From positions 1-34,048 of the forward strand of contig JAIXZD010000114.1 in NCBI GenBank assembly GCA_027489895.1: DNA of 34,048 nt, in the 5' to 3' direction. The position numbers were made by a program, and so were the translations under genes. The stretch's first letter is position 1. Every line of letters starts with the position of its first letter. Of the stretch, positions 15,154 through 24,794 are shown one piece after another. This stretch comes from Planctomycetaceae bacterium. Its GTDB lineage: Bacteria; Planctomycetota; Planctomycetia; Planctomycetales; Planctomycetaceae. The notes beneath the pieces are model-generated. The model was not told where the DNA came from and made no database searches. It saw only the letters and a list, made by a program, of their open reading frames with translations.

Positions 15154-15245
15154 GTCACCACCCATAAGCTGAGTTTTCTTAAGACCGGGGAACCAACATC
15201 CACTTCGTGACGATATCAGGATCGCCGTGCGCCCACAAAGAATGC

Positions 15246-15275
15246 AGAAACGCGCGGCCCAAAGGGGACCGCGCG
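15246..15275 (-). terminator. Stem-loop terminator after pilin-like paralogue A
   Basis: The arms CGCGCGG (15251-15257) and CCGCGCG (15269-15275) extend inward by CCC/GGG. On the minus strand TTTCT follows. It sits about 80 nt past the stop of paralogue A. The U-tract is short, so termination may be partial. Confidence 0.55.
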
Positions 15276-15354
15276 CTCTCGGTAATCGCACCGTCAGGTT
15301 TTACGCCCGAACGTCTGGGGAGTTCGCAGCGACAACCGTAACTTCAATTCGGCA

Positions 15355-15684
15355 TTACGACCCCGAACCTTCCTTGATCGAGGGATTCGTGCAGTACAGC
15401 GAGAAGCAGTCGTTGCAGTCACAGCAGCTCACGTCCGACAGGTCGCCGTAGGCGCTGCCCGCGGTCGTGATGTTGTGCACACCCTTCGTCGTCACCGTCC
15501 CCGCGTAGCTGTACGACTGGTTCAGCGAGCCAATCGCGTCACCCAGATCGTCCAGTTCGTGCAGGATCGACGCCTGCAGTTCCACCAGGCCCACAATCAG
15601 GCCGATCACCAGAATCGTCGACACAAGAATCAACTCGGCCGAAACAATGAAACCCGACTCATCCCGAACAAATGCCTGCATCAT
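15355..15684 (-). CDS. Pilin-like cysteine-rich small membrane protein, paralogue A
   Basis: The product is 109 aa from ATG 15684; a second ATG follows directly, and GGGGACC lies upstream. The N-terminus RDESGFIVSAEL resembles a class III prepilin signal, with a short charged leader, Gly11, a hydrophobic helix (about 18-38) and a Glu. The Glu is at +6 after Gly rather than the usual +5. An acidic segment (HELDDLGDAIGSLNQSYSY) and a tail with C87, C88, C90 and C98 follow; this copy has an extra C93. It differs from paralogue B at about a dozen positions, six of them in the first ten residues. I recognise it as a conserved planctomycete small-protein type without assigned function. It lies near the Tad locus and has its own terminator. 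It could be an alternative pilin, a pseudopilin or a surface anchor; none is shown. Confidence 0.8.
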   Translation of the reverse strand: MMQAFVRDESGFIVSAELILVSTILVIGLIVGLVELQASILHELDDLGDAIGSLNQSYSYAGTVTTKGVHNITTAGSAYGDLSDVSCCDCNDCFSLYCTNPSIKEGSGS

Positions 15685-15789
15685 GTGTTGGTCCCCAGAA
15701 CCAGAACAAAAAAACGTCACACCACATCCACGCGTCAAATCGTTCCCTCGCCGTGCGCGGCCATTTCCGTAAACACGGCACTCACTCAA

Positions 15790-15829
15790 CAAAAACAGCC
15801 CCGGAAAGATCGAAATCTCTCCGAGGCTG
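15790..15829 (-). terminator. Rho-independent terminator after pilin-like paralogue B
   Basis: The arms run from CAGCC (15796-15800) to GGCTG (15825-15829). In minus-strand RNA the stem continues through CGGA/UCCG and AGAU/AUCU with two G-U pairs and a UUCG tetraloop. The run TTTTTGTT follows directly. This is a strong canonical terminator 70 nt past the stop. Confidence 0.85.
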
Positions 15830-15898
15830 CCGAACTCCAAAGCCGGTCCCAGTCGTATCGTCGTGCCGAATTGCGAACGGGCCAGGCGACTTGGTGAG

Positions 15899-16228
15899 TT
15901 ACGAACCCGAACCTTCCTTGATCGACGGGTTCGTGCAGTACAGCGAAGCACCGTCGTTGCAGTCACAGCAGTTCACGTCCGACAGATCTTGGTACGCGCT
16001 GCCGGCGGTCGTGATGTTGTGCACACCCTTCGTCGTCACCGTCCCGGCGTAGCTGTACGACTGGTTCAGCGAGCCAATCGCTTCGCCCAGGTCGTTCAGT
16101 TCGTGCAGGATCGACGCCTGCAGTTCAACCAGACCAACGATCAGGCCGATCACGAGGATCGTCGAGACGAGGATCAGTTCAGCCGAAACGATGAACCCGG
16201 CTTCGTCATTCAGGAAATTCTTGACCAT
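15899..16228 (-). CDS. Pilin-like cysteine-rich small membrane protein, paralogue B
   Basis: The product is 109 aa from ATG 16228 with AAAGGA about 9 nt upstream. The order is NDEAGFIVSAEL, hydrophobic helix (about 18-38), conserved GLVELQASILHELNDLGEAI, a Thr/Gly-rich middle, then CCDC (87-90) and C98 before PSIKEGSGS. It is nearly identical to paralogue A from residue 11 onward and close to paralogue C. The spacing of the four cysteines is invariant in all three copies, which suggests disulphides or metal binding outside the membrane. Its own terminator (15790-15829) separates it from paralogue A, so the copies are probably independent transcripts. The function is unknown. Confidence 0.85.
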   Translation of the reverse strand: MVKNFLNDEAGFIVSAELILVSTILVIGLIVGLVELQASILHELNDLGEAIGSLNQSYSYAGTVTTKGVHNITTAGSAYQDLSDVNCCDCNDGASLYCTNPSIKEGSGS

Positions 16229-16433
16229 GCTTGAGAGTCCTTTTGTCGAGAGACACACGAGAGAGAGAGAGTCGTCCTTCCGATCCGGGTGGGTGGCCCG
16301 ACCCATTCCGGAGTTCGCAAACGGCCCGGCCAGGCCATCCGCGATTCCCAAACGGCCAGATCGATTCGCCCGATCAGACTGTCTGGATTGCGACTACACG
16401 GTGAGTGCAGTCGCCGCTTGCAAGCAGGGATAT

Positions 16434-16461
16434 TGACAGGCCTGCCGAACGGCAGGCCTAC
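16434..16461. repeat. Dispersed TAGGC...GCCTGTCA hairpin, long form
   Basis: The arms AGGCCTGCCG (16438-16447) and CGGCAGGCCT (16450-16459) are perfectly complementary around AA. On the minus strand the element begins GTAGGC and ends GCCTGTCA, the same ends as the shorter element at 27454-27472 on the plus strand. It is probably a member of a dispersed repeat family. Confidence 0.55.
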
Positions 16462-16638
16462 AACGCAACGGCACAGCGGCCCGCCCCTCGGCCTCACGTG
16501 CCATCCACGACACGTACCAGGGGGAAAACCACCACATCCGACACGATCACTCTCAGGCAGTTGGTGTGCCGAATCCCAAGGCAACTCAAACGAGCGCGAG
16601 CAATGGGGACAGACTCTTGCACGAAAGTCGATGATTTC

Positions 16639-16680
16639 TGGCGGAAAACGGCCTATCGCGGCCATGTTCACTTTCCGCCA
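16639..16680. repeat. Compound hairpin (9-bp outer, 4-bp inner stem)
   Basis: The outer arms TGGCGGAAA (16639-16647) and TTTCCGCCA (16672-16680) are perfect. An inner GGCC (16650-16653)/GGCC (16660-16663) stem encloses TATCGC. The sequence just before it (16603-16621) reads GGGGACAGACTCTTGCACG. It could be a REP-like element or a small structured RNA; I cannot tell which. Confidence 0.45.
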
Positions 16681-16910
16681 CAGCGCCCGAAACACCGGAC
16701 GACCGCTTCCCCAGCGCGTTAAACCAGCCTGTCACGCGAAGCGCTCACAGCGCTCAACGCATGAATCAGTACACAGGGCATCCCTGTGATCGCGAATCCC
16801 ATCACGGGACTCCAGCGTCACTTCCCCTTCCAATTCAATTCGTCGCTCCACTTCACTTCTTCACTGTTGTTTCATTTCCTGAATACCGTTCGTCCACTCC
16901 CAGCTCGCAG

Positions 16911-16941
16911 AAAACCGGGAGCCCGCACGCGAGCCCCCGGT
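16911..16941 (-). terminator. Rho-independent terminator after pilin-like paralogue C
   Basis: The arms ACCGGG (16914-16919) and CCCGGT (16936-16941) are perfect. In minus-strand RNA the stem continues for seven more pairs, two of them G-U. TTTTCT follows on the minus strand. It lies 60 nt past the stop. Confidence 0.75.
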
Positions 16942-17000
16942 CTCCCTGTTCCCAAATCCAGGTCGCCAGCCAACCGGCCGGATCTCTGGAAGAATCATCT

Positions 17001-17336
17001 TCAGCTACCACCAGCGACTGGCTCCTTGACCGTCGGGTTCGTGCAGTACAGCGACGCCCCTTCGTTGCAGTCACAGCACGCCACATCCGATGTGTCGATG
17101 TATGCGCTGCCAGCGGTCGTAATCAGGTGAGTCCCCTTCGTCGTCACCGTCCCGGCGAAACTGTACGACTGGTTCAACGAACCGATCGCTTCGCCCAGAT
17201 CGTTCAGTTCGTGAATGATCGCTGCCTGCAGTTCGACCAGGCCCACGATCAGGCCGATCACCAGGATCGTCGCCACCAGGACCAGTTCCGCCGAGATGAT
17301 GAATCCCGCTTCGTCATTCCAGAAGTTGTTCAGCAT
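17001..17336 (-). CDS. Pilin-like cysteine-rich small membrane protein, paralogue C
   Basis: The product is 111 aa from ATG 17336 with GAAGGA about 8 nt upstream. The N-terminus is NDEAGFIISAEL, followed by a hydrophobic helix (LVLVATILVIGLIVGL), an acidic amphipathic stretch and a tail with C87, C88, C90 and C98. It is the most diverged copy: Ile or Val replace several core residues, and the end is TVKEPVAGGS instead of SIKEGSGS. It is nearest to cpaE but separated from it by 711 nt that include palindromic repeats. The short segment before its start shares ATCGGAAGG with the same region of paralogue B. The function is unknown; a pilin-like or anchor role is inferred from the N-terminus and location. 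Confidence 0.85.
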   Translation of the reverse strand: MLNNFWNDEAGFIISAELVLVATILVIGLIVGLVELQAAIIHELNDLGEAIGSLNQSYSFAGTVTTKGTHLITTAGSAYIDTSDVACCDCNEGASLYCTNPTVKEPVAGGS

Positions 17337-18047: not shown

Positions 18048-19262
18048 CTACTTCTTCCCCGCCCCCAGGAACGAGAACAGCCCCTTGCGGCCCTTCTTCT
18101 CTTCGCTTTCAGGCTTCGACGTCAGGATCGAGCCATCGATCGTTCCCGCCAGACCTTCCAGAGACTTCGTGATCTTCGCCCGCGGCGCTTGCGTCACCAG
18201 CGGCACGCCGTTGTTCCGCGCCTCGACCATCGTCGCGTAGTCGTTCGGCACCTGCCACGCCACCTCCCGACCGATCGTCTCCAGCGCCTTCGTCAGACTG
18301 ATCTGCGAATCCTCCAGCCCCATCCGGTTCACCACGACCTTCGTCTTCTTCGACAACCCCTCATGCGTGTCGAAGTACTGCAGCATCCGCACCACATTCC
18401 GCAGACACGGCAGGTCGAGCTGCGTCGTCAAGAGGATCGTGTCCGACACCTCCATGATCGTCATGTCCAGCGGACCGTAGCTCTTGCTCACGTCGACCAC
18501 CAGATGCGTGAATGTCGCCTTGAGGAGCGCCACCACCCGCCGCAGGTTGTCCGGCGAGATTTTGAACTTGTCATCCAGATGGATCGGCCGCGGCAACAGA
18601 AACGCCCCGCACGGATGCTTCGTGAGTGACCGCTTCAAGAGCGCGTAGTCCAGCCGCGTGATGTTTTCCGCCACGTCCTGAATCGTGTACTCGGGGATCA
18701 TGTCCAGCCAGACGTCCGCATCCCCCAGCGCAAAATCGAGGTCGATGATCGCCACGCTGTTTTGAGGATGCTGTGCCAGAATGCACGCCAGGTTGATCGC
18801 CAGCGACGTGCACCCCACGCCCCCGCTCACCCCGCACACCGTGATGATCTGGCTCGAGCGCACCTGCCCATCGTCCCGGCCGCTCCGGTTCGTCTGCGAG
18901 ATCCGATCGAGGGCCGACAGGAAGTCTTCGATCCGTAGCGGCAGTCCCAGGAATTCCTTCGCCCCGTTCCGCATCGCCTGCAGAATCAGGCTTCCCTCGG
19001 TGGACGAGCTGATCACCAGCACCGCACACGTGGGCACATCCTGAGACACCCGCGTGATCAGAGCCAGGGCACGGGCCGGGTCCGAGTCGAGCGAGATCAG
19101 CGCGATATCGGGCTGCGTCTGCATCACGACATCGCTGAAGAACTCGTACTTCGAGCACTCCGCCTCGAGCCAGACCGACTCAATCCCCACCAGCAGGTTC
19201 TTGAGTGCGTTCCGCGTGTTCTCATGCGGATCAACCAGCGCCAGTCGCACCACAGTCTTCAT
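18048..19262 (-). CDS. cpaE: Tad pilus assembly ATPase CpaE/TadZ
   Basis: The product is 404 aa from ATG 19262 with GAGGA 7 nt upstream. Residues 1-120 form a receiver-like fold (LALVDPHENTRNAL, ALISLDS, GAKEFLGLPL). Residues about 137-370 are a MinD/ParA-like ATPase domain: ITVCGVSGGVGCTSLAINLA (Walker A), AIIDLDFALGDADVWLD and HLVVDVSKSYG. The Walker A is GVSGGVGCT, so both the signature lysine and the P-loop lysine are replaced (by Ser and Cys). Atypical Walker A motifs are known in the CpaE/TadZ group, which localises the Tad machine at the cell pole or envelope. A Lys-rich tail ends the protein. It is the last gene of the Tad cluster here; tadA, tadB and tadC do not follow. Confidence 0.92.
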   Translation of the reverse strand: MKTVVRLALVDPHENTRNALKNLLVGIESVWLEAECSKYEFFSDVVMQTQPDIALISLDSDPARALALITRVSQDVPTCAVLVISSSTEGSLILQAMRNGAKEFLGLPLRIEDFLSALDRISQTNRSGRDDGQVRSSQIITVCGVSGGVGCTSLAINLACILAQHPQNSVAIIDLDFALGDADVWLDMIPEYTIQDVAENITRLDYALLKRSLTKHPCGAFLLPRPIHLDDKFKISPDNLRRVVALLKATFTHLVVDVSKSYGPLDMTIMEVSDTILLTTQLDLPCLRNVVRMLQYFDTHEGLSKKTKVVVNRMGLEDSQISLTKALETIGREVAWQVPNDYATMVEARNNGVPLVTQAPRAKITKSLEGLAGTIDGSILTSKPESEEKKGRKGLFSFLGAGKK

Positions 19263-19357
19263 AGCTCATCCTCGGTCCAGCCCGGGCTTCGTCAAATTCG
19301 GGTGACATCGCCCCCGCACAACCTGTTGCTCAAACACTCCGTCCCCATCTCGCCGTC

Positions 19358-19382
19358 GTAGCGGAAGCGGTGACGCTTCCCC
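19358..19382. repeat. GTAGCGGAA hairpin repeat, copy 4
   Basis: The arms GGAAGCG (19363-19369) and CGCTTCC (19374-19380) flank loop GTGA. It lies in the gap between cpaC and cpaE. Confidence 0.75.
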
Positions 19383-19400
19383 CGCACCCAACCCCACCCT

Positions 19401-19425
19401 GTAGCGGAACTCGTAAGAGCTCCCC
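19401..19425. repeat. GTAGCGGAA hairpin repeat, copy 5 (inner stem CTC/GAG)
   Basis: The arms GGAACTC (19406-19412) and GAGCTCC (19417-19423) flank loop GTAA, with one A-C mismatch. The inner triplet pair CTC/GAG replaces GCG/CGC of copies 1, 3 and 4, again keeping complementarity. Confidence 0.65.
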
Positions 19426-19442
19426 TCCCTTCGCCCCCTTCC

Positions 19443-21308
19443 TCACGGACTAATCAAACCCGGCCGGCTCGACGACAGCCGATCCCGGCTCGCCGTCGAG
19501 CCACTCTTCGAGGAAGCCGCCTTGGTCCCCGCCGCAGGCGTCGCGCCCTGCTTCGGAATCGACCGGGTTGCTCCCGCCGGCTGCACGCCTCGGTCTCGCG
19601 TGCCAACCCCAGACGTTCCTCGCGGACTCGTCGGGATCCGCCGGGCGGTGCTCGGTGGCGGCACAATCTCACCGGCTGGCTCTGCCGCAGGCGTCGGCGA
19701 CAATCCGCCAGGTCCCGTCGCCGGGGCCGCATCAGGCGTGGCCGGCACTACTGGAGATGTCGGAACAGCTTCCAGCGGCACTCCTTCGACCGCGGCTCCC
19801 TGCGGTGCGGCCGGTGCCAGCGGTACTCCGCCAGACGTTCCTTCCGCCCCAACATCCCGCGGCATCAAACCCGTCGGAGCCATCTCGTAGTCCACGTCCC
19901 CATCCGGTCCATACCGCGGCACTTCCATGTAGCCGCTGCCATACAGCTCGCGATCAGTCGGCGACACCGTCTGCTGGCCCGGCAGTAACTCCGGAATTTG
20001 ATCAGGCGACAGCGGTTCGGCCAGTTCCGGCGTCACCAGAATCAGCAGTTCCGTTTCCGATTCATCATGCGACACCCGGCGGAACGCGGCCCCCACCCAC
20101 GGCAGTTCGCCAAGGAACGGAATCTTCTGCGTTCGCGACTGCACGCGATTGTTGATCAGTCCCGCAATCACCAGCGTCTCGCCGAAGTTCATCTCGACTT
20201 GCGCATTTGCCCGCCGAGTCGTCAGCCCAGGCACCACCGTCGTGCCCACGGTCACCTGGTTCGTGAAGTCCTTCTCGCTCACTTCCGGAGCCACTTCCAG
20301 CCGCACCCGGCCATTTCCCAGCACGATCGGAACGAATTCCAGGCGCACACCAAACGGCTTGAACTGCACCGTCACGGTGCCCAGCCCCCCCGGAACCAGA
20401 ATCGGGAACTCACCCCCCGACAGGAAATTCGCGGGGCGGCCGTTCACCGTCATCAGCGTTGGCTCCGCCAGCACCTTCAGCAGCGATTCCTGCTTCAATG
20501 CTTCGAGGAACCCCGCGAAGATGTTGTCGTTGCTCACCAGCCCGAATGACGCCGTCGAATTCCCCATGCCCGCGGCCGGGAATCCCACGGGGCCACCAAA
20601 CGGCATCGACGCCGATCCAATCGTCCCAATGTTCCCCGGGGTACTGCTGACGTAGCTTCCGTCCCGGACGTTCAGGAAGTTGAACCCCAGCGTGCGGATC
20701 TTCCCCCGCTGCACTTCCATGATCTTCACCCGCAGCATCACCTGCTGGATCCCACTCACGCGCAGGTAGTTGAGCACCTTCGGATGGAACTGTTCCGCAA
20801 TCTCCACGATCGGCGTCAACTGGTCCGGCTGATTCACCCAGCCCAGAAGCAGCACGCTGTCCTTCACCTTGATCGCATGGACCGAGGCATCCGGAAACGC
20901 TCGCTTGATGATCGCTTCGAGTTGTTTCGTATCGCCGCTCACCAGAATCTCGACCGAGAACAGTTCGTTGTTCTCGTCGACCACAGCCAGTGTCGTCACG
21001 CCCGCCGCCACCGCCTGAATGCGGATCTTGCGCGGGTCGTTCGACTCCGGTCGTTCCGGATCGGAGATCGTCGTCACCTTGAGAACCGCCGGGTCGAACC
21101 CATCAACCGTCTTGATCCGGTTGGTGAACGACAGAATCCGGCTCGATTTCTCGATGAGCGTCAGATTGCTCTGCTTGGTGGCGACGGACACCACCAGGGT
21201 GTTCCGGCCGTCATCTTGTGCCGTGGCCGGTGCCAGCCAGCCTGTCATGACGACAAGCGGCGCGAGCAGTAAGGCCAGACGTGTCCAGGTTAGGCCGGTT
21301 TGACGCAT
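19443..21308 (-). CDS. cpaC: Tad pilus secretin CpaC/RcpA
   Basis: The product is 621 aa from ATG 21308. The signal peptide is residues 1-30 (LALLLAPLVVMTGWLAPATA, cleavage before QDD). The N-terminal pilus-formation domain (about 35-115) includes RILSFTNRIKTVDGFDPAVLKV. A BON-like segment (about 120-170) is followed by the secretin core (about 180-435), with VLAEPTLMTVNGRPANFLSG and VEMNFGETLVIAGLI, and a conserved LVTPELAEPL end. Residues about 440-621 are a Pro/Ala/Gly/Ser-rich tail unlike standard secretins, which usually end soon after the core. It forms the outer-membrane channel for the Flp pilus, with CpaB as partner. The 180-nt gap to cpaE contains two palindromic repeats. Confidence 0.95.
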   Translation of the reverse strand: MRQTGLTWTRLALLLAPLVVMTGWLAPATAQDDGRNTLVVSVATKQSNLTLIEKSSRILSFTNRIKTVDGFDPAVLKVTTISDPERPESNDPRKIRIQAVAAGVTTLAVVDENNELFSVEILVSGDTKQLEAIIKRAFPDASVHAIKVKDSVLLLGWVNQPDQLTPIVEIAEQFHPKVLNYLRVSGIQQVMLRVKIMEVQRGKIRTLGFNFLNVRDGSYVSSTPGNIGTIGSASMPFGGPVGFPAAGMGNSTASFGLVSNDNIFAGFLEALKQESLLKVLAEPTLMTVNGRPANFLSGGEFPILVPGGLGTVTVQFKPFGVRLEFVPIVLGNGRVRLEVAPEVSEKDFTNQVTVGTTVVPGLTTRRANAQVEMNFGETLVIAGLINNRVQSRTQKIPFLGELPWVGAAFRRVSHDESETELLILVTPELAEPLSPDQIPELLPGQQTVSPTDRELYGSGYMEVPRYGPDGDVDYEMAPTGLMPRDVGAEGTSGGVPLAPAAPQGAAVEGVPLEAVPTSPVVPATPDAAPATGPGGLSPTPAAEPAGEIVPPPSTARRIPTSPRGTSGVGTRDRGVQPAGATRSIPKQGATPAAGTKAASSKSGSTASRDRLSSSRPGLISP

Positions 21309-21648
21309 CCATGCACCTGTGGGTCGAGTCGTCCATGAGAGCCCCGCCCGGAACGAACAGTCTCGTTCTCAGGCTGACGTCGCGGGTGACGCAGGCCTCC
21401 TGTCACTGGTTCTTCTCGTCTCGTCCTTCCCGTCGCGTTCGTGCGCGTCTGGTCCTGTTCGACCGTTCCCCCACTCGGCCCAGCCCCATCTCTGAGAACC
21501 GTAAGCCAAACGGGAGCGGGGCAGGCGTTTCCAACACCCACCCCAGACACCACTCACGCGGTCACCGAAGCGGAAACGCCTCAGTGACCTGTTCCTTCGA
21601 TTCAGTTCCTTCCTCATCCCACGTCAGAACGCGGGTGAGAAGGGTGCT
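21309..21648. other. Intergenic gap between cpaB and cpaC
   Basis: These 340 nt contain the hairpin at 21560-21589 and no credible gene. No clear promoter for cpaC is seen. Confidence 0.5.
21560..21589. other. Hairpin between cpaB and cpaC
   Basis: The arms GGTCAC (21560-21565) and GTGACC (21584-21589) are perfect. Inside, GA/TC and GCG/CGC pairs separated by single mismatches lead to a GAAA loop (TTTC on the minus strand). It lies 60 nt past the cpaB stop. No T-run follows, so it may slow or stabilise rather than terminate the transcript. Confidence 0.45.
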
Positions 21649-22809
21649 TTAGCCCGCATTCGATTGGTTCGTCGCGTCCATCTTCCGGGCCGCCGGCTGA
21701 TTCGACTTCGATTGATCAGCCTTCGTGCGCGGTTCCGAAATCAACTGCCGCAGCCAACTGCCCACGTCCGCTCCACCCTTCTTCTCCGGTGTCGCAGCCG
21801 ATGCCGTCGGCTCACCAGCCGCTGGGTTCTCTTGGAACTCTTCTTTCTCGGGAACGATTTCGAGCGTTTCCACTCGCTTCTCTTCGCCATCGTAAATCGT
21901 GATCGACCAGGTGTTCTTCGGCGCGATCGCAGGCACTTCCAACTCAGGTTGCGGAGTCTCCGCCGAGGGCGACGGAACGTTCGGGTTCAGGAACGACTTC
22001 AACCGGTCCTGCTCCGTCCCGCTCATCTGGGTATTGCTGACTTTGGTCGGAGCAGGCTCCGCCGGATCTTCTTCCGACAGTTTGACGCCTTCGTCGGTAT
22101 CGATCCCTTCAAACGCTTCGTCGTCAATCTCCGTCGTCTCCACCGCCACATCGTCCGTCGTGCTTCGCAGCGTCAACTGCAACTGCCCGTTCTGCGTCGC
22201 ATACGACAGCGTCTGGGCCTGTTGCGGCGTCACCAGCAGCGACACGTTCTCCGGCTTCGCACTCGCCTTTGAGGCATCCGCCGAATCCTGGTGCCGAACT
22301 TTATCCACCGAGAAAATCTCGATGTTGGTCAGAATCGTTTTGGTCTTCTTGAACTGGACTCCGTTCTTCTGCCGGGCATACGTCAACACGATGTCGACCT
22401 TGTTCCCTGCCGTCACCATCCCCGAAATCGACGACGTCGCGTTGACTGGCACCGCAACCACGCGCATCCCCTTCGGGATCTGGGCCGCCACCCCAATCAC
22501 GCCTGGCTCGCCCATCTTCGCCTGGAGAATCAACTCCCCAGGAAACAGCCGCACGGTGGTCGCCCGCCGCTTGTACTGCTCAGGATCCGTCACGGCCCCC
22601 TGCGGGATCGTCTGAACTTCGCGCTCTTCAAACGCGACGTTCTCCTCCTTCAGCTCCGCGCCGGCATCAATTTCCATGCGGGCGACGAGCACCGAGACCT
22701 TGTTCCCGCCGCTCGACTTCCGCTCCGCCAGCACCTGCTGGACACCCACCATCGCCACCAGACCGCAGCCCAGCGCCATGGCCAACAGCACCATCGTTTT
22801 CAGTTTCAT
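21649..22809 (-). CDS. cpaB: Flp pilus assembly protein CpaB/RcpC
   Basis: The product is 386 aa from ATG 22809. It has an N-terminal membrane anchor or signal (MKLKTMVLLAMALGCGLVAM, residues 1-28) and a SAF-like domain at about 38-100 (VLVARMEIDAGAELKEENV, FPGELILQAKM). The RcpC/CpaB domain follows at about 105-215 (GMRVVAVPVNATSSISGMVTAG, NKVDIVLTY). The C-terminal 170 residues are acidic, Pro/Glu-rich and low-complexity, longer than in typical CpaB. The protein stabilises the CpaC secretin in the periplasm. It lies between cpaA and cpaC in the expected Tad order. A 514-nt gap with a stem-loop and an ACCTAGGT palindrome separates it from cpaA, so it may have its own promoter. Confidence 0.92.
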   Translation of the reverse strand: MKLKTMVLLAMALGCGLVAMVGVQQVLAERKSSGGNKVSVLVARMEIDAGAELKEENVAFEEREVQTIPQGAVTDPEQYKRRATTVRLFPGELILQAKMGEPGVIGVAAQIPKGMRVVAVPVNATSSISGMVTAGNKVDIVLTYARQKNGVQFKKTKTILTNIEIFSVDKVRHQDSADASKASAKPENVSLLVTPQQAQTLSYATQNGQLQLTLRSTTDDVAVETTEIDDEAFEGIDTDEGVKLSEEDPAEPAPTKVSNTQMSGTEQDRLKSFLNPNVPSPSAETPQPELEVPAIAPKNTWSITIYDGEEKRVETLEIVPEKEEFQENPAAGEPTASAATPEKKGGADVGSWLRQLISEPRTKADQSKSNQPAARKMDATNQSNAG

Positions 22810-22957
22810 CGGAACACCTTGGCGAACGTGACTGCGAACAGATGCATTCCTGCTCGGTCAGCCCCGCATTTGGGACATCCCTCGCAACGCAGACATCCTG
22901 TCCCGAACGTTCGCCTCCCTGCTCCGCGCAGAGCCTTCCTCCGCACGTCCACTGAGA

Positions 22958-22965
22958 ACCTAGGT
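22958..22965. promoter_or_regulatory. ACCTAGGT palindrome upstream of cpaB
   Basis: This perfect 8-bp palindrome sits in the 10-nt minus-strand match GACCTAGGTT, also found upstream of flp (25008-25017). No good -35 box is visible at 16-18 nt spacing here, so a shared regulator site is as likely as a shared -10. Confidence 0.35.
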
Positions 22966-23229
22966 CGCAAAATCCTCTCGCGCCGTCAGATTCCTCTGGA
23001 TTTTCTCCAGTCGCTGGAATCCATTCCGCCGCTTGAGGTTCCGCTCTTTCGTTTCGGCACCGGCCAATCCTCACATCCCGCCTCGTTCCACACCGGACCT
23101 GTACGTCTGTGCGGACATCTGGCGCGATTGTGACGATCGGCGCGGTCAACCATCTGTATCATCGGCAGGGCGCTTCCCGACTCTTCACTCTGTGCCGGAT
23201 TCTCCCTCTGTTCCGGAAACGCACGAAAT

Positions 23230-23267
23230 GCCACAAGCGGCGGAGGCTGACCCCCGCCGCTTGTGGC
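23230..23267 (-). terminator. 14-bp stem-loop after cpaA
   Basis: The arms at 23230-23243 (GCCACAAGCGGCGG) and 23254-23267 are perfectly complementary around a 10-nt loop. On the minus strand ATTTCG follows. It lies 57 nt past the cpaA stop. The stem is very strong but the U-tract is poor, so it may attenuate rather than fully stop transcription. Confidence 0.6.
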
Positions 23268-23323
23268 GATTTCAGGTTTCCAGTGATCGACAACCCGGTC
23301 GACCAGGACAGTCTCGCTGCGAT

Positions 23324-23875
23324 TTACACCAGGCCTGCGTAGATGAAGTACGCGATCGAGCCGATGCAGATCGGAATCCCGTACGGCAGAAGGTGCATCC
23401 GCGGCTTCCGCTCGGCAGCGATCTCCGCCAGCTTCCGCGGATTCTTGATCGTCGTCCATTCGCCCAGAATCATCAGGGCGTTGCCGTAGTGGTGCTGGAA
23501 CTTGCCCGACTTCCACACCATCACCAGTGCCATCACCGCACCCACAACCACCGAGACGCAGAACGCATCCCACGTCACCTGCGGGCCCAGCCAGGCACCC
23601 ATTCCGGCCATCAGCTTCACGTCGCCGGCGCCCATCCCGCCCACCGCATACAGCGGCAACAGAGTCAGCAGCCCGACAACCATTCCGTATCCGCCAAATT
23701 GCAGACCGTCCCAGCCGTTGGCGATCCCGTTGTAGACCAGGCCCGACAGGACCATCGGGAACGTCAACCAGTTCGGAACTCGCAACTGCTTGCCGTCGAT
23801 CCACGCTGCCCAGATCAGCAGCAGGCAGACGACCTTCGTCGGCCAGTGTTCGATGAGAAGTGTGTGCCAATCCAT
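23324..23875 (-). CDS. cpaA: A24-family prepilin peptidase CpaA/TadV
   Basis: The product is 183 aa from ATG 23875; an upstream in-frame GTG (23932) gives a non-hydrophobic extension that I reject. The two catalytic aspartates of the A24 family are visible, in AAWIDGKQLRVPNW and in the GxGD motif of GGMGAGDVKLMAGMG. Several hydrophobic segments fit a polytopic inner-membrane protein. The family cleaves class III signals after Gly in Flp prepilins (the G-PTAVEY site in the two flp genes here) and in pseudopilins. It may also process the three small pilin-like proteins nearby, but their Glu position is shifted by one. It lies between the flp genes and cpaB, as in other Tad loci. Confidence 0.93.
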   Translation of the reverse strand: MDWHTLLIEHWPTKVVCLLLIWAAWIDGKQLRVPNWLTFPMVLSGLVYNGIANGWDGLQFGGYGMVVGLLTLLPLYAVGGMGAGDVKLMAGMGAWLGPQVTWDAFCVSVVVGAVMALVMVWKSGKFQHHYGNALMILGEWTTIKNPRKLAEIAAERKPRMHLLPYGIPICIGSIAYFIYAGLV

Positions 23876-24034
23876 TTTTCGGCCAAAACCTTTCTGAGGG
23901 GGGAGACTACCTGCCTTGTTCGCACGGCCCACTGCCGCACCGGTTGTTCATCGCGCAAGCTCCGCCACACGATCTTCAGTTCTGCAACATCCTGTCATGC
24001 TTCAGCCAACCCTGGCCGCATCACCGGGAACGCC

Positions 24035-24055
24035 CACTCGTGCAAAACACGAGTG
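24035..24055. repeat. Perfect 8-bp hairpin CACTCGTG/CACGAGTG
   Basis: The arms at 24035-24042 and 24048-24055 flank the loop CAAAA. It lies between the small ORF and cpaA. The repeated CCCAC flanks suggest a dispersed palindromic element. Confidence 0.5.
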
Positions 24056-24082
24056 CCCACTCCCAGAGCCGCGGCCCCTGCC

Positions 24083-24187
24083 TTATCGCCGCGCCAGAAA
24101 CAACTGCGTGAACACCACCACCCCGCCACCCATGGCCATCACCATCTGCGGCAGAGTCAGTTCGATTTCCAACCAGAACGGAAACAT
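24083..24187 (-). CDS. Small hydrophobic ORF (34 aa) in the Tad cluster
   Basis: A frame of 34 codons starts at ATG 24187, preceded by AGGTG five nt upstream, and ends at TAA 24083-24085. It translates to MFPFWLEIEL, TLPQMVMAMG, GGVVVFTQLF, LARR. It would be a very short membrane peptide with one hydrophobic helix and a C-terminal Arg pair. It is co-directional with flp1 upstream and cpaA downstream, with a good ribosome-binding site. I do not recognise the family. Its reality rests on the RBS, position and composition; a chance ORF remains possible. Confidence 0.45.
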   Translation of the reverse strand: MFPFWLEIELTLPQMVMAMGGGVVVFTQLFLARR

Positions 24188-24227
24188 GATTCACCTGCTC
24201 TTCAATTCGGTGTCGTAAAGTCTTCCA

Positions 24228-24259
24228 ACCCGGAACCCCGCTCATGCTGGTATCCGGGT
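24228..24259. other. Hairpin between flp1 and the small ORF
   Basis: The arms ACCCGGA (24228-24234) and TCCGGGT (24253-24259) are perfect; ACC/GGT extends the stem after a one-base bulge. It lies 23 nt past the flp1 stop. No T-run follows. Confidence 0.45.
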
Positions 24260-24281
24260 CGACACATCCAACCACTTCAAC

Positions 24282-24467
24282 TCACGAACTCGTGCCACCC
24301 AGCTTGCCCGAGACCGTCGTGAACGTCGTATTCGCTCGCGTGCCGATCGTGCTGATCGACGTGAGGCAGACCACCACAATCAGGGCCAGCATCACCGCAT
24401 ACTCAACAGCCGTCGGGCCGTCTTCCGAAACCAGGAACTGCTTGACATCGTTGACCAACTGACGCAT
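24282..24467 (-). CDS. flp: Flp-family type IVc pilin (distal copy)
   Basis: The product is 61 aa from ATG 24467 with GGAG 9 nt upstream. The 17-residue leader ends in SEDG, followed by PTAVEYAVMLALIVVVCLT: Glu at +5 and Tyr at +6 after the predicted CpaA cleavage site, as in Flp pilins. The tail is short and Thr/Ser-rich (IGTRANTTFTTVSGKLGGTSS). It is nearly identical to the proximal flp in the core helix, with differences in the leader and tail. It should be the major or minor subunit of the Tad pilus. Confidence 0.93.
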   Translation of the reverse strand: MRQLVNDVKQFLVSEDGPTAVEYAVMLALIVVVCLTSISTIGTRANTTFTTVSGKLGGTSS

Positions 24468-24540
24468 CTGTCTGACTCCGCTGCGTTTGTGGTGATGAAT
24501 GGGGGGGGAGCAAACTGGCACCAATCACTCCGAGACCCCA

Positions 24541-24575
24541 CACCCGGCCGAGGCGGTGCAAGCCTCGGCCGGGTG
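24541..24575. other. 14-bp stem-loop between the two flp genes
   Basis: The arms CACCCGGCCGAGGC (24541-24554) and 24562-24575 are perfectly complementary, with a 7-nt loop. On the minus strand no T-run follows. It may protect the 3' end of the proximal flp mRNA or reduce downstream expression, so that this pilin is made in excess. Confidence 0.6.
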
Positions 24576-24608
24576 CGTTTTCGGGTCTCAAATCAGGCGG
24601 GTGTCGAA

Positions 24609-24794
24609 TTACGACGAGGTGCCGCCGAGCTTCGTGGCGACGCTGTTGAACGTCGTGTTGGCGTTCGTCCCGATCGAGCTGATCGCCGTCAAGCAGACCA
24701 CAACGATCAGGGCCAGCATCACGGCGTATTCAACAGCCGTCGGACCATCTTCCGAAACCAGGAACTTCTGGACGCTCAGAGCAAAAGCCTTCAT
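24609..24794 (-). CDS. flp: Flp-family type IVc pilin (proximal copy)
   Basis: The product is 61 aa from ATG 24794 with AAAGG about 10 nt upstream; longer frames are rejected because they lack the pilin leader. The leader is MKAFALSVQKFLVSEDG, and the mature start is PTAVEYAVMLALI, with Glu at +5 and Tyr at +6. The tail is IGTNANTTFNSVATKLGGTSS. It is the first gene of the Tad cluster and closest to the promoter at 25008-25035. With the distal copy it forms a tandem pair, as is common in Tad loci. It is probably the major pilin, judging by position. Confidence 0.94.
   Translation of the reverse strand: MKAFALSVQKFLVSEDGPTAVEYAVMLALIVVVCLTAISSIGTNANTTFNSVATKLGGTSS

Follow-up and report, generated by a model that had tools for sequence, protein, structure and literature searches.

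Three small genes within a 34,048-nucleotide stretch of planctomycete DNA, called here the window in its whole length, very probably encode prepilins that belong to a divergent family of Tad (type IVc) pilins, special to one planctomycete class. Judged by its sequences, this family would work like the Tad pilin, yet it stands outside Flp_Fap by both its motif and its model. The reading is built on the observed positions of the genes, their observed conservation pattern, the co-occurrence of the family with two divergent types of Tad machine and the phylogeny of these machines. The novelty lies in the pilin family itself, in the two machines that go with it and in the extent of its dispersed repertoire. 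The machine serving the three proteins is most likely either an operon on contig C181 of the same genome, which has family pilins of its own, or the type 3 machine described below; the neighbouring flp-cpaABCE locus probably is not their machine.

The three genes and their products

The open reading frames of 109, 109 and 111 aa that had been predicted here are present, all on the minus strand (Table 1), and their products share 76-89% pairwise identity. Per pair of genes, 25-27 codon differences are synonymous and 12-28 non-synonymous, so that the three genes are under coding constraint. The motif DE(S/A)GFI(V/I)SAEL was recovered from all three translations, and the four cysteines at positions 87, 88, 90 and 98 occur in each of them, a fifth one (Cys 93, in the product of 15355-15684) having been missed earlier. 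The conserved four-cysteine tail holds for the window proteins, but not as a mark of the family, being a trait of a local subgroup. The simplest guess for the role of these cysteines would be disulfide bonds exposed on the filament. None of the Pfam and NCBIfam models matches the three proteins.

The separate hairpin proposed after each gene is real, none of 200 shuffles folding as well, and the one at 15794-15831 is alone in passing a simple terminator scan, in which a T run is required. Good ribosome-binding sites had been ascribed to two of the genes, and AAGGA-like sequences were indeed located at genes 15899 and 17001, that of gene 15355 being weaker. A sigma-70-like promoter was not detected for any of the three.

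Table 1. Pilin-like genes, 3' hairpins and neighbouring Tad genes in the window
Feature	Position	Strand	Details
Pilin-like protein 1	15355..15684	-	109 aa; Cys 87, 88, 90, 93, 98; family profile E 6.5e-37
Pilin-like protein 2	15899..16228	-	109 aa; Cys 87, 88, 90, 98; family profile E 2.9e-38
Pilin-like protein 3	17001..17336	-	111 aa; Cys 87, 88, 90, 98; family profile E 2.9e-40
Hairpin 3' of protein 1 gene, probable terminator, weak T tract	15243..15280	-	-24.3 kcal/mol, z -3.9
Intrinsic terminator 3' of protein 2 gene	15794..15831	-	-27.8 kcal/mol, z -6.2; terminator scan
Hairpin 3' of protein 3 gene, probable terminator	16908..16946	-	-29.8 kcal/mol, z -3.6
cpaE, ordinary Tad locus, neighbour, probably not the cognate machine	18048..19262	-	Pfam CbiA / AAA_31 / Response_reg
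cpaC secretin, ordinary Tad locus, neighbour	19443..21308	-	Pfam Secretin 1.3e-41
cpaB/rcpC, ordinary Tad locus, neighbour	21649..22809	-	Pfam RcpC 1.9e-25
cpaA prepilin peptidase, neighbour	23324..23932	-	Pfam Peptidase_A24 2.8e-21
flp1, ordinary Tad pilin, GPTAVEY, Glu at +5	24282..24467	-	Pfam Flp_Fap 2.8e-9
flp2, ordinary Tad pilin	24609..24794	-	Pfam Flp_Fap 3.9e-10

A prepilin-like pattern with a displaced glutamate

A class III signal consists of a hydrophilic leader to Gly/Ala and 20-25 hydrophobic helical residues, often with an early Glu (PMC10191384). These elements of a type 4 pilin signal are found in the family. Among 188 unique family sequences, the prepilin-like Gly of DEAG is kept in 180/182, a hydrophobic run is present, and AlphaFold, given protein 3 with a 41-member alignment, predicts one helix at residues 8-52 of the 110-aa chain (the start Met was omitted from the input), the tail being of low confidence. 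In the same set of sequences, Glu lies at +6 after Gly in 164/184, with no indel between the two residues, and thus the +6 spacing pointed out in the window proteins is correct there and extends to the whole family. The residue following Glu is Leu in 135 of 186 sequences and Tyr in 18, and the mean top-residue frequency is 0.62-0.68 over the first 58 positions and 0.46 in the tail. The core idea of the original prediction, a class III-like leader of alternative Tad pilins or pseudopilins, is strongly supported. A Foldseek search of the PDB with the single-helix model gave no match, which is unsurprising, because the model is a lone helix, and a sequence search of the PDB gave nothing useful.

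The likeness to Flp/PilA (PF04964) lies in the slot before cpaA/cpaB, a short leader to Gly, a Glu in the hydrophobic start, one long helix and a very small size. The structure solved for the Caulobacter Tad pilin is one amphipathic helix, which is held through Glu19 and Tyr20, numbered Glu5 and Tyr6 in the mature form (PMC11067988). The family departs from this scheme, in that its Glu is at +6 and not at +5, and that Glu is mostly followed by Leu where Flp has Tyr, the family not conforming to the GXXXXEY motif (Glu at +5, then Tyr). Given the rule of Glu at +5, a change in either the cleavage site or the packing is therefore required, which counts against the pilin reading. So do the length of Flp, about half that of the three window proteins, and the low confidence of the predicted tail; members of the family mostly have 95-125 aa, the second part being conserved and the tail bearing Cys. 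A further difference is the copy number, which reaches 19 or more in a genome. Of 41 aligned family members none is matched by a Pfam pilin model, another point against a pilin; for Flp_Fap (PF04964) this holds at E 0.1, and the window's two flp products do match that model.

When the family was aligned to Flp with hhalign, the match covered the full length and, one gap residue aside, brought the Gly and the Glu of both into line. It is a weak match (probability 7%), its score being 20.3 versus 12.7 +/- 2.8 in column shuffles, which preserve the hydrophobic part and of which 1/60 scored as high. For seven short members the score against Flp was 22.2 versus 10.1 +/- 2.0, with 0/60 shuffles as high, and these same seven match the family itself at E 1.5e-21. 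Short relatives of 56-95 aa, bearing GGVFVEY or GGLLSAEY, have a form intermediate between the family and Flp (L013:5774-6037, L016:5022-5270, L014:18829-19032, L022:10570-10854, L023:2939-3163 and L033:10782-11006).

TadE/TadF pseudopilins (PF07811) are also small Tad-associated proteins, which are cut by TadV/CpaA. The family resembles them in size and association, but has no TadE match, and in the genome of the window TadE/TadG-like genes are separate from it. They were seen at L040 (G000:C507, 689-8130), where a CpaA-like gene is followed by TadE-like and TadG-like genes, a family gene lying about 1.2 kb past these on the opposite strand.

Spread and copy number of the family

The genome of the window contains 15 relatives (16 by profile search), spread over ten contigs. 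When 84,980 species genomes were scanned with a single protein, 34 loci emerged, planctomycetes where assignable, and a 28-row profile detected the family in 29/37 genomes of the window's class and in 0/255 genomes of the phylum's other classes. The supposed restriction to planctomycetes is thus upheld, and is narrower still in this survey, being confined to one class. In a larger sample of that class, 107/249 genomes bear the family. Loci L001 and L024 belong to a cultivated relative, Thalassoglobus neptunius KOR42. Many of its genes stand alone, with unrelated genes around them, and many are remote from Tad genes. Tandem arrays of 6-9 family genes were observed at L149, L150, L151 and L162, their products hardly differing over the first 60 residues but diverging in their tails, and other members have extended tails, their open frames spanning some 200 to 425 residues (L157:5854-6840, L164:6604-7878 and L035:6575-7198). 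The open-access literature yielded no description of the family or of planctomycete Tad pilins.

Three arrangements of Tad genes

Homologues lying mostly in Tad-less genomes would have spoken against the original prediction, but this is not the case, CpaB (TIGR03177) being present in 37/37 class genomes of the first sample. The DNA around 68 CpaB matches, together with the loci of the window's own genome, was read for Tad genes and family genes, and shows three arrangements. Type 1 is Flp-CpaA-CpaB-CpaC-CpaE, with CpaF-TadB-TadC attached or elsewhere, and its flp slot is never occupied by a family gene. Type 2 begins with 1-5 family genes, at times followed by CpaA, and continues with CpaB-CpaF-TadB-TadC, with no gene that matches ordinary Flp. 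Seventeen type 2 operons were found in the first survey, one of which (L049, on contig C181) belongs to the window's own genome and encodes Pfam RcpC, T2SSE and two T2SSF proteins. A pilin gene linked to cpaF, tadB, tadC and cpaB is therefore observed for the family (L049 and 16 others), but not for the three window genes. Type 3 is CpaA-CpaB-CpaF-TadB-TadC and lacks a pilin gene of its own, none being found within 3.5 kb upstream of cpaA; the window's own genome has such a machine, with CpaF on C542 and CpaA-CpaB on C90. In G280, a family gene adjoins CpaA in divergent orientation. No secretin (CpaC) was found near most type 2/3 operons, such as L127 and L136, which counts against the proposal. 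Elsewhere, genomes with more than one Tad locus have been described, as have single orphan Flp genes (PMC10934763).

A CpaF tree groups the sequences by arrangement, into Flp-slot sequences, family-slot sequences (17/18 rows in one group) and no-pilin sequences (15 rows, with a support of 100), and 4 changes explain all labels versus 21 in shuffles, in a quick tree that gave long-branch warnings, is rooted for drawing only and has one unsure family-slot row (L103).

In the 249 class genomes, types were called by thresholds set from the separation that the bit scores of two CpaF queries gave, clean for type 3 and narrow for type 2. On this basis, a type 2/3 CpaF occurs in 90/107 genomes with the family versus 1/142 without it (Fisher p 6e-49, relatedness uncorrected), the p-values being descriptive because related genomes are not independent. 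The family thus follows the divergent CpaF types. The sole family-negative genome with a type 2-like CpaF (578 bits) has it at G378:C283:5697-7007. All 50 type 3 genomes carry the family, in at least 5-19 copies (median 10), mostly scattered, and the 23 genomes with type 3 but without type 2 have at least 5-14 copies, the median in type 2-only genomes being at least 3. At the thresholds used, a type 2/3 CpaF was not seen in 17 family-bearing genomes, which counts against the association; several of these come from genome family f78, and in at least one case, that of G405, the score is marginally below the type 2 threshold. At L030-L032 (Gemmataceae or Planctomycetales), the family lies near CpaA or CpaE.

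Loss of the glutamate in operon members

The Glu is missing in 20/82 unique operon members versus 0/99 others (p 3e-8). In multi-member operons it is absent from the gene adjoining CpaB in 24/36 loci and from the others in 7/68, some of the 36 loci being overlapping stretches of one genome. In type 4 filaments, the subunit that caps the tip complex lacks Glu5 (PMC10191384), and the operon gene next to cpaB is similar in this respect. The loss is limited to some operon members; the three window proteins retain their Glu and for this reason look like polymerising subunits.

Mechanism and alternative explanations

The original prediction had argued for a Tad role from proximity to flp, cpaA and cpaC, and these genes do lie nearby, in a locus made up of two flp genes, cpaA, cpaB, cpaC and cpaE. 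This locus lies at 18048-24794; its cpaF, tadB and tadC are absent from the window and were found on another contig (G000:C350:4919-8537, L044). Such a split from the ordinary Tad locus is seen in most genomes of the window's taxonomic family, the genes being together in other families. The argument itself fails, because about 35 other ordinary flp-cpaABCE loci were examined and none has family genes alongside, the window being the sole type 1 locus seen with family genes after it; nearness to this locus was accordingly dropped as the main evidence. This same count makes it unlikely that the three proteins are accessory or minor pilins of the adjoining Flp-Tad locus, processed by the CpaA encoded there and incorporated into the Flp pilus. 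The three genes are on the same strand, directly after cpaE, a Peptidase_A24 CpaA that could in principle process their products is encoded there, orphan Flp paralogues are known, and two Agrobacterium pilins are interchangeable, according to work cited in PMC10934763. However, the family tracks type 2/3 machines, genomes without it keep ordinary Tad loci, and each of the three genes has its own hairpin terminator.

It is very improbable that the proteins are type IV-like pseudopilins of a PilD-dependent type II secretion system or a type IVa pilus. A Phe after Gly, as in type IVa pilins, and the many other T2SSE ATPases of the genome would suit this origin, but there is no N_methyl match, and the operon link is to cpaB-cpaF-tadB-tadC and not to gsp/pil genes. 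Small single-helix membrane proteins that export a Cys-rich tail and never polymerise are just as improbable: although one transmembrane helix with a low-confidence Cys tail would suit them, and many of the genes lie far from Tad genes, an invariant Gly and Glu within the hydrophobic start, operons with the family in the flp slot and a loss of Glu confined to operons are hard to explain without pilin assembly.

For prepilins of a divergent Tad family, we infer a course of events in which a CpaA-type peptidase would remove the leader MLNNFWNDEAG by cutting behind the invariant Gly, leaving a mature protein that starts with Phe, carries the conserved Glu as its sixth residue and forms a single long helix. 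A CpaF-TadB-TadC motor would then drive this mature helix into a filament, whose core would be formed by the helices, the variable Cys-bearing tails being displayed on the surface. The scattered genes, those of the window included, most likely feed the type 3 machine, type 2 remaining a candidate. Thus, a machine with no pilin gene of its own would be supplied by dispersed and separately transcribed genes.

Tentatively, the family may represent a separate type 4 filament subclass confined to one planctomycete class, marked by Glu at +6 and by two Tad machines of its own, of which one has no pilin gene and would draw on up to about 20 dispersed pilins. If so, since the dispersed pilins have nearly identical helices and different tails, one motor would build filaments with exchangeable surfaces.

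Implications

The analysis offers a function for a large unannotated planctomycete family, with up to 19 or more genes per genome. Tad pilins are known as tiny Flp proteins, and a longer one with a displaced Glu would probe how strict the rule of Glu5 packing is, while a Tad machine apparently runs with no pilin gene in its operon. Planctomycetes are surface-dwelling bacteria in which fibres, matrix and attachment have been described, and these genes are named here as candidates for such structures.
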